Source: Candidatus Poribacteria bacterium (GTDB lineage Bacteria; Poribacteria; WGA-4E; PCPOR2b). From it: a stretch of 64,000 nucleotides of DNA. Below are positions 7,639 to 11,096 of the stretch, in pieces (within the stretch, counting starts at the first letter, position 1; every line of letters starts with the position of its first letter). Made by a program: the position numbers and the translations under genes. The stretch lies in assembly GCA_028819845.1 (NCBI GenBank), contig JAPPKS010000003.1:1-64000 (forward strand), given 5' to 3'. A model generated the notes under the pieces. The model searched no databases, was not told the DNA's origin, and saw only the letters and a list, made by a program, of their open reading frames with translations.

Positions 7639-7802
7639 ATCGACATTAAAAAGCACTGCATCCGCGTCCCATTCCCTTTGATTCAACAATTGAATCCACG
7701 ATAGTCCTTTCTGAACCGTCAGGAGGCATGACTCTACCTTCAGATATTATGTGAGCGTCCATCAAGACGAGCTTGGGCTTTCTTCGATTGGAGCATCTTG
7801 CT

Positions 7803-10628
7803 ATGCGTAACGCTATTCGCGACACCTTCAACCTCGCGCGGCAACATAGAAACCAAGCCTTTGCGGTGATAGTTTCCGGAAGCAGCTTTGTTTTCGCATT
7901 GGCATTGGGTTTTAATGTCAAGGAACACCTCCATTTTTTTACTGAATTTGGGTCAGATCAACTTGCCAAACGTACTGTAGCCGAGCGTCAGGAGATTGTA
8001 AATTATTTAGCCGCACTCGCGTTCGTGCCGGTTTATGTCCTGATTAGTTGCGGATTATGGGTGACGTTCTCGGCGGTTTGCGCTAAATTGACTAACAACG
8101 CTAAAGAGCGCATCTTGCGGGAAAATGCGCTCACGTATCTACTTTTCTTGTTAGTGTTGGAGCGAGTACACCTTCCTGGCAAATTTGCTGGAGAATTCGG
8201 GACGCCGGCGAGCCTGTTCATAATTGCCCAAGTGTTGTTTTTTTCATTCCACCTGATGGTCTCGAAAAGGCGTCGGCGTGAAAAACTGGAAACGCGCGAG
8301 GGCGAGGCGCGTTTGGAAGGAGAGCCAAAAATTGGAGAAATTCTTTGGGCTAGGGAGACTATGCCATTCCATGGAATACCGATTGCCTGCGGGGTTTGCC
8401 TGACCGTTTTTCTTCTGATTATTGGAAGTCCGAAAGAGGTCGCAGCAATAGCGTGTTGGCAAATGCTCTTTGTTATTGTGCTGGGAACCTGGGGATTCTG
8501 GGTTGGATATTCGATACTGCTGAGAAAATTAACACCTTATAGTTTCGCTGATATACTCCGAAATGATTCTGTCACTTATTTTCCGTCCATCCTGCTGTTG
8601 TTTCTCACGGTGTTTTTCAGGGTGAAGCATGCAGCGGCAATCTTGGCAATTGTCACTTTCATAGCAATTGCCGCTTTGAAAATTTCTACCCTGCTAAACC
8701 TCCGTTCATCCCGAAGAATTGTTAAGCAGCAAATCCCCGCCAGCCGGCCTTACCACATGGCTTTGCAACGGAGAGTGTCTATTCTGAACATTATCATGAT
8801 GTCCGCTCTCATTTACGCCTTTATGTATAATAGCAATGCCAGTCTGAGCCATGCTTATACCGGTGCGAACGCCATGGGCGGTATTGACCTTTATCACGAA
8901 GGCGAACGTGCGGCAGTAGTAAACGAACTGCTGCGAGGGGGCATTCCTTATCGAGATGTCTACCTACAGCACGGGCTTGTTCAAAACGCATACAAACCCT
9001 GGCTCGCCATGAAACTCTTTGGAGAAACGCTAGAGGCGGATAGAAAACTGCACCATATTGTGTATCCACTGGGATATGTCTGTTTTTATCTTCTCGCGTT
9101 GCAGTGTTTTCGAAGAAGAGCTACGGCTCTCTTTGTTTCTTTGGCTTTAATTTTGCTGACGTTTGGATTGGCAGCACCGCGAGCGTACCTTCCGGTGACA
9201 GATCGGCATATTCTGGGGTTTCTCACTCTGATGCTGCTATGCAAATGGACTCAAAGAAGTCCCGGACATGGAAAATCGATTCTCGCAGCGGCAGGAGTTT
9301 GTACAACATTGGCAGTGTTCTATAGTCTTGACACCGGTTTGTATACTTGGGCAGCCTCTAGCGTGTTCCTATTTGTATTCGGTTTCGCCTCCATTTTCTG
9401 CAGATCGGTCAATAATGGTGGAGCCGCGGCGAATCCTAGTTCTTCAAAAGACAAAGTACAGCAGGTGAGGGATGGTGCATTGGGCAAGTGTTTGTCGCCG
9501 CTTCTAACGTATAAGTTAGGGGTCATAATAGCATTTGCCCCGTTCATTATCTTTTTTGGCGTCCACGGTGCGATAGATGATGCGGTTAAAAGCTCATGGA
9601 TTCAATTCACGTATCACACGGAAATTTGGGGAACGCCCTTTATCCCGCTGTTGGCAGAACTATCAAAGATTACCTCTCTCGTCACATTATCGGACTTTAT
9701 TTTAAGCAAGACATTTATGTGGTATTTCCCCATCCTCGTTTACTTGATGACTTTAACCTTTCTGATGTTTCGCGCAGTTGCAAATCAATGGAAAGTGGAG
9801 GATTGGAAGTTGCTTATAATTCTGTTGGCGGGTATCATTTATTTCAGAACAGCTTTAGGTCGTTCAGACTGGCACCATGTATTATTTAGCTCTTCTTTTA
9901 TCTGGTTAATCTGCTTCTTTTTCTTTGAAGGAATGTGGCTGGCGTTTAGGTTGCGTGGATCTTCGGAGAATACACACCAGGTAAAAACGAGTGAAGAACT
10001 GACAAGAGCCGATACAACCAACGATGCTAAAATGACGGTAGAGCATGGTGAATGTCGTGATGCGTCGCCGCCTACGGTCCGCAGCGTGCAAATGTCCCGA
10101 ATTAATCTACCGCTGTTAATTTGTTCTATGATGTTTGTGGTGGGCTTGCTTTGGTATATCAGGACAGATCTGTACGGGGTATTCGCAGCCAAACCGTTGA
10201 AGCAGGCTGAAACGATGCTAGTTAATTTTACGAATTACGGAAGAATCCCAGGGGGATATGCCGAGGTACGCTTAAAGCGGGCAGGGCGGGTTTTGACACC
10301 AGTGAACGAGGCGGCGCAGATTGAACAGGTGGTCAATTATATCCAAGAAAACACCGAGTCTTCTGACCCAATCTTCGATTTTGCTAACCAAGGCATGAAT
10401 TATTTCCTTGCGAACAGACCTAATCCAACAAGGTTCCCTCAAATCGCCTATGCTAAACCGGAGCCGCTGCAGAAAGAGGTGATTGCGGACTTGGAGGCGT
10501 CGAAGCCAAAAATAGTGATATACAGAGAGCGGATTTCCGCCGTGCTTCCATTAGTCGCTGCTTATCTTCAAATACATTATATCAAAGATATTCAGCTTGG
10601 AAATGTGGAGATTTGGAAACGGCGATAA
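7803..10628 (+). CDS. Large polytopic membrane protein, GT-C glycosyltransferase-like
   Basis: About 941 residues with many hydrophobic spans, a middle region that looks like a GT-C enzyme, and a soluble C-terminal domain. The segment D-L-Y-H-E-G-E-R followed by L-R-G-G-I-P-Y-R-D-V-Y-L-Q-H-G is the first-loop acidic motif commonly seen in lipid-phosphate-sugar-dependent transferases. G-R-S-D-W-H-H-V lies in a later loop. The last 100 residues resemble the extracytoplasmic domain of such enzymes (V-V-N-Y-I-Q-E-N-T, and F-L-A-N-R-P-N-P-T-R-F). It probably moves a sugar from a polyprenyl carrier to a glycan or protein outside the membrane; donor and acceptor are unknown. ATG 7803 is preferred over 7773 because TTGGAG lies nine bases upstream of it. 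Confidence 0.65.
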   Translation: MRNAIRDTFNLARQHRNQAFAVIVSGSSFVFALALGFNVKEHLHFFTEFGSDQLAKRTVAERQEIVNYLAALAFVPVYVLISCGLWVTFSAVCAKLTNNAKERILRENALTYLLFLLVLERVHLPGKFAGEFGTPASLFIIAQVLFFSFHLMVSKRRRREKLETREGEARLEGEPKIGEILWARETMPFHGIPIACGVCLTVFLLIIGSPKEVAAIACWQMLFVIVLGTWGFWVGYSILLRKLTPYSFADILRNDSVTYFPSILLLFLTVFFRVKHAAAILAIVTFIAIAALKISTLLNLRSSRRIVKQQIPASRPYHMALQRRVSILNIIMMSALIYAFMYNSNASLSHAYTGANAMGGIDLYHEGERAAVVNELLRGGIPYRDVYLQHGLVQNAYKPWLAMKLFGETLEADRKLHHIVYPLGYVCFYLLALQCFRRRATALFVSLALILLTFGLAAPRAYLPVTDRHILGFLTLMLLCKWTQRSPGHGKSILAAAGVCTTLAVFYSLDTGLYTWAASSVFLFVFGFASIFCRSVNNGGAAANPSSSKDKVQQVRDGALGKCLSPLLTYKLGVIIAFAPFIIFFGVHGAIDDAVKSSWIQFTYHTEIWGTPFIPLLAELSKITSLVTLSDFILSKTFMWYFPILVYLMTLTFLMFRAVANQWKVEDWKLLIILLAGIIYFRTALGRSDWHHVLFSSSFIWLICFFFFEGMWLAFRLRGSSENTHQVKTSEELTRADTTNDAKMTVEHGECRDASPPTVRSVQMSRINLPLLICSMMFVVGLLWYIRTDLYGVFAAKPLKQAETMLVNFTNYGRIPGGYAEVRLKRAGRVLTPVNEAAQIEQVVNYIQENTESSDPIFDFANQGMNYFLANRPNPTRFPQIAYAKPEPLQKEVIADLEASKPKIVIYRERISAVLPLVAAYLQIHYIKDIQLGNVEIWKRR

Positions 10629-10708: not shown

Positions 10709-11050
10709 TCATAACATTAGTATAGCATCGTACAGTTTCGCATTAAATCCAACGAAAAACGACTCCCCGATTTGCAGTGTGGGTGCACGCAAATTTCCAC
10801 TTCGTCCCATTACCGCTTTGAGAATGTCATCTCGCAAGCCGACATCCGGATTGAAAACATTGACCTCCTTGCCCCGTGCAACGTGGATGGATTGGGCAGT
10901 TTTGATACGCTCCCAAACTTCCGTTGGATTCAGCTTCACCTTACGCGCATCGGTTCGGCTATCTACTTGAAAATCATTTGCGTCAAGAAACTCTTGCGCT
11001 TTACGGCAAGATGTTCAGCTATTTCTAAAGTACATCCAATTCACCGTCAT
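10709..11050 (-). CDS. ArsC-family selenoprotein (thioredoxin-fold, U-x-x-C), UGA read as selenocysteine
   Basis: The coding frame begins at ATG 11050, directly after a near-perfect Shine-Dalgarno (GGAGGAGGTT), and runs in one frame to 10709 with a single TGA at 11015-11017 (codon 12). Reading that codon as Sec gives 113 residues starting M-T-V-N-W-M-Y-F-R-N-S-U-T-S-C-R-K-A-Q-E. U-T-S-C-R-K-A is the place of the redox Cys motif of ArsC-like thioredoxin-fold proteins. The rest (G-N-L-R-A-P-T-L and V-G-F-N near the end) fits the bacterial ArsC-like (seleno)protein family. A SECIS-like stem-loop lies 23 bases after the UGA. The protein is probably a cytosolic thiol/selenol oxidoreductase; its substrate is unknown and arsenate reduction is not established. 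It lies 46 bases after the ABC permease gene in the same direction. A gene finder would wrongly begin it at GTG 10939. Confidence 0.85.
10980..10999 (-). promoter_or_regulatory. Bacterial SECIS element
   Basis: On the minus strand GCG-CAAGA pairs with TCTTG-CGC, with one bulged A, closing a three-base loop GTT. The loop begins with G and starts 23 bases after the UGA. Both features fit the known bacterial SECIS pattern (a small hairpin with a G among the first two loop bases, 16-37 bases from the UGA) that recruits SelB with Sec-tRNA. Confidence 0.75.
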
Positions 11051-11096
11051 AACCTCCTCCAATTTTCAGTTTCTGTAAGAGTTAATTTTTGTGTCC

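Follow-up and report, generated by a model that had tools for sequence, protein, structure and literature searches.

The window analysed here, a 64,000-nucleotide stretch of Candidatus Poribacteria DNA, carries on its minus strand a short gene whose features are collected in Table 1. Its start codon, ATG 11050, lies downstream of a Shine-Dalgarno sequence, GGAGGAGG (11060–11053), which bears out the strong initiation signal described in the earlier note, and GGAGG-like motifs are found 5′ of many homologues. The frame is interrupted solely by a TGA at codon 12 (11017–11015) before it reaches its stop, TGA 10711–10709. It translates as MTVNWMYFRNS-U-TSCRKAQEFLDAN..., in agreement with the note's reading of a frame broken at this one codon, with a U-x-x-C motif (here U-T-S-C) at the redox position.

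Table 1. Features of the selenoprotein locus, in window coordinates.
Feature	Position	Strand	Basis and remarks
Selenoprotein gene, ArsC/Spx-like (ArsC_rel_Se_1)	10709..11050	-	113 residues including Sec12; NF041106, E = 1e-34; one TGA inside
Shine-Dalgarno GGAGGAGG	11053..11060	-	From sequence
UGA codon 12, predicted to be read as selenocysteine	11015..11017	-	One UGA in 71/71 Poribacteria-phylum genomes with the gene; TGC in 4 homologues
Cys15 codon TGC, putative resolving thiol of U-x-x-C	11006..11008	-	Invariant alignment column
Predicted bacterial SECIS hairpin, 8 pairs, loop GUU (10991–10989), bulged A 10983	10980..10999	-	Folding, codon bias, covariation, comparison with Cys homologues

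The product matches the profile NF041106, 'ArsC family (seleno)protein', over its entire length (positions 1–107 of 107) with 119.3 bits and E = 1e-34, the curated cut-off being 85 bits. That family has Sec or Cys as the first residue of a (U/C)xxC motif, and in the window gene these positions are occupied by the UGA of codon 12 and by Cys15. The earlier note expected standard gene calling to begin at GTG 10939, and this codon does open an ORF of 76 amino acids. The ORF lacks the redox motif, scores 64.3 bits and is matched only from profile position 37, so that standard calling loses the active site and yields a protein under the family cut-off. The same ORF could be taken to mean that UGA is a true stop, the real protein starting at GTG 10939 or the gene being a pseudogene. 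When the window gene is compared with eight relatives, however, dN/dS is 0.086 for the codons 5′ of UGA, where synonymous change is saturated, and 0.21 for the codons 3′ of the hairpin described below. Coding constraint thus holds on either side of UGA, and the upstream segment evolves as protein, which contradicts a downstream start or a decayed gene. As the truncated form also falls short of the NF041106 cut-off, and UGA is kept in all 71 phylum members with the gene and replaced by Cys elsewhere, we give this explanation almost no weight and rejected it.

The genome from which the window derives (4.6 Mb in 35 contigs, 96.6% complete) encodes the components for selenocysteine insertion. A tRNA-Sec (selC) with anticodon UCA is detected at 77.5 bits, selB at 373.8 bits with selA adjoining it on the same contig, and selD at 377 bits (G000, contig C10:184709-185632, locus L134). 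All four genes for which the note had proposed a search are therefore present, and the absence of selB or selC, named there as evidence against Sec decoding, is not seen. The selD gene itself has one in-frame TGA in the usual active-site loop, KCAG-U-ASK, and the genome therefore has at least two selenoprotein genes. In another genome (G053), contig C50 carries two selB matches above the cut-off (153489-155384 and 157864-158679) about 2.5 kb apart, possibly a duplicated or split selB.

Among genome records the closest loci belong to Candidatus Poribacteria metagenome-assembled genomes (MAGs), with amino-acid identity up to 82%. Within the phylum we find the gene in 71 of 85 genomes; each copy has exactly one TGA, which lies at codon 12 in every copy that was fetched, and no Cys version was found among the 85. 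These data document a family that, throughout this phylum of uncultured bacteria, contains Sec without exception. The gene is restricted to part of the phylum: nine genomes (G001, G002, G005-G009, G011 and G012) have selB and lack the gene, and three more (G003, G004 and G023) have neither the gene nor a selB above the cut-off. Outside the phylum we covered 291 genomes of a second class, that of a Desulfobacteraceae MAG. Full matches above the cut-off are present in 41 of these, 37 with one TGA and four (L105, L109, L115 and L125) with TGC, that is Cys, at codon 12. Homologues thus show Sec (UGA) or Cys (TGC) at this position, as the note's proposed alignment was meant to reveal, and the opposite outcome, homologues that all end before the codon and start downstream, was not encountered. 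The four Cys sequences form a single clade (support 100/99) in a tree built on few columns and rooted only at its midpoint. Because this clade is nested among Sec-containing sequences, it is consistent with, and likely reflects, one Sec-to-Cys replacement. One Sec homologue (L131) reads U-K-S-S, with Ser replacing the resolving Cys; a U-x-x-S form and a sequencing error are both conceivable.

Downstream of UGA lies the hairpin GCG CAAGA / GUU / UCUUG (A) CGC, with a 5-bp upper stem and three pairs below the bulge. It begins 15 bases 3′ of UGA, and its loop opens with a G at the 24th base after UGA, leaving 23 bases in between. The position, loop and spacing given in the note are therefore correct; its stem left out the bulged A 10983. 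According to the published bacterial SECIS model (PMC13188914), the apical loop comprises 3–9 nt with G in the first two loop positions, on a stem of 4–16 bp located 16–37 nt from UGA, with a minimum free energy of at most -7.5. The hairpin conforms to this model with its 3-nt GUU loop, 23-nt spacing and -8.5 kcal/mol. The fold that the note proposed to compute is obtained in one of two forms: the 47 bases 3′ of UGA fold to exactly the 10999-10980 hairpin at -8.5 kcal/mol, whereas a 62-base piece that includes UGA prefers a different structure (z = -0.83 versus shuffles). Given this competing fold and the non-significant z score, folding energy alone is no evidence for the hairpin, and we rejected single-sequence folding as an argument. 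No Rfam family matches in the window at gathering thresholds.

The support is instead comparative, in conservation and covariation. Pairing holds in 94.8% of the hairpin cells when 62 distinct sequences from Poribacteria are compared, and sliding the partner strand by 1–3 bases reduces this to at most 56%. Doubly changed cells number 15, compared with 3.5 ± 1.5 in shuffles, both partners have changed in three of the pairs, and the covariation score is matched by none of 500 shuffles; at columns 22-25 the pairs do not vary within the phylum and hence are uninformative on covariation. The hairpin codons show a synonymous divergence of 0.13 versus 0.64–0.73 in the flanking stretches. The hairpin Leu is encoded by CTT in 68 of 68 sequences, a codon chosen for 11% of Leu residues downstream, and the hairpin Gln by CAA in 68 of 68 against a background of 43%. 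In the second class, Sec copies keep 3–5 of the five apical pairs versus 1–2 of five in the four Cys copies, in which the hairpin is broken and the UGA is gone too. This provides a clean natural contrast: where UGA is present the hairpin persists, and where Cys has taken its place the hairpin is lost. Two Sec copies (L129 and L133), with AGU at the loop columns, have a slightly shifted stem and a GGA loop. With the model satisfied and compensatory changes found, the note's claim of a SECIS element stands, and the hairpin is predicted to drive Sec insertion by binding SelB.

That UGA is open in this frame would also be expected if it were read as another amino acid such as Trp, through general reassignment or plain read-through. 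The same gene, however, terminates with UGA (10711–10709), the genome has tRNA-Sec, SelA, SelB and SelD, codon 12 aligns with Cys and not with Trp, and a SECIS hairpin lies 3′ of the codon. On these grounds we regard reassignment as exceedingly improbable and rejected it as well. The locus is, we conclude, almost certainly a genuine selenoprotein gene in which codon 12 is decoded as selenocysteine. The note's proposal that the organism reads UGA as Sec here accordingly gains support from three sides, namely the Sec machinery, the UGA/TGC homologues and the covarying hairpin. From the conserved machinery and signal we infer that SelB, carrying Sec-tRNA(UCA), would bind the hairpin and so allow codon 12 to be decoded.

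A gene that decodes Sec was in this case recognisable from raw sequence. It is not a 'hidden' selenoprotein as the note had it, since the family is already in NCBIfam as NF041106 and in published reviews. An entry 'arsenate reductase-like protein, NF041106, UxxC' appears in PMC13188914, and an 'arsenate reductase-like protein, UxxC' is placed under COG1393 in PMC9312934. In the GOS survey (PMC2398784), the entry 'Arsenate reductase 2, cd03032, UxxC', comprising 42 Sec sequences, is probably the same family as NF041106. The Poribacteria gene has the UxxC of that family at the corresponding position, a bacterial SECIS downstream of its UGA, and a full-length match above the cut-off; it shows no essential difference apart from its source organism, Candidatus Poribacteria. 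The arsenate reductase selenoprotein with UxxS (TIGR00014; PMC1088965, PMC13188914) likewise belongs to the ArsC superfamily, but it forms a separate subfamily, with UxxS where the present gene has UxxC. Searching the literature for Poribacteria together with 'selenoprotein' turned up no paper. Because the family is already covered by selenoproteome reviews, the gene is a well-supported new example of a catalogued kind and not a new kind, and it leaves knowledge of Sec insertion itself unchanged.

An AlphaFold2 model built from a 30-row alignment, with Sec modelled as Cys, has a pLDDT of 94.5 and a pTM of 0.88. By fold and by profile the best PDB matches are Spx proteins. The superposition on Spx is loose, and TM-scores near 0.5 indicate a distant relation only. 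Spx, a Bacillus subtilis regulator with a CxxC redox switch, shares the thioredoxin-like ArsC fold and a GxLRxP segment with the window protein, and its CxxC aligns with the UxxC; the two differ in that the first Cys of Spx is Sec here, and identity is about 20%. The product is predicted to adopt an Spx/ArsC fold of the thioredoxin type. To judge by the UxxC motif and by how it aligns with the CxxC of Spx, thiol-disulfide (selenenylsulfide) exchange most likely proceeds with Sec12 acting as the selenolate that attacks and Cys15 supplying the resolving thiol.

The family name and the distant similarity to ArsC-family proteins could suggest that this selenocysteine protein is specifically an arsenate reductase (ArsC). 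Profile similarity, however, is stronger to Spx than to ArsC, and the match to Pfam ArsC (PF03960) scores 12.2 bits (E = 0.24), below its threshold of 24. None of the neighbours that were identified, whether recurrent or local, is a recognisable arsenic gene, which argues mildly against a dedicated arsenate reductase. Together these two results leave the name arsenate reductase unjustified, and we consider that function unlikely. The protein is, at a guess, most plausibly a thiol-disulfide oxidoreductase that works through a selenol. The lack of a Cys version in the 85 phylum genomes suggests that selenium chemistry is required for the function; that the protein is, in the lineages with the gene, a redox switch or reductant of Spx-like type that works with Sec only and has nothing to do with arsenate is a tentative and rather doubtful extension of this idea.

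In roughly half of the loci compared, 101 in all, the gene is flanked by a Gfo/Idh/MocA oxidoreductase on the upstream side and an NAD-dependent epimerase on the downstream side. These recurrent clusters are not adjacent to the window gene, and we rejected a conserved neighbourhood as a clue to function. No relatives were found in plasmids or viral contigs, and there is therefore no sign of a mobile origin. The window gene itself lies 46 bases 3′ of a transporter permease gene, with a TatD-type nuclease also upstream. On the plus strand, a 951-aa predicted membrane protein (7773-10628), with no Pfam match at E ≤ 0.001, is convergent with the selenoprotein gene.
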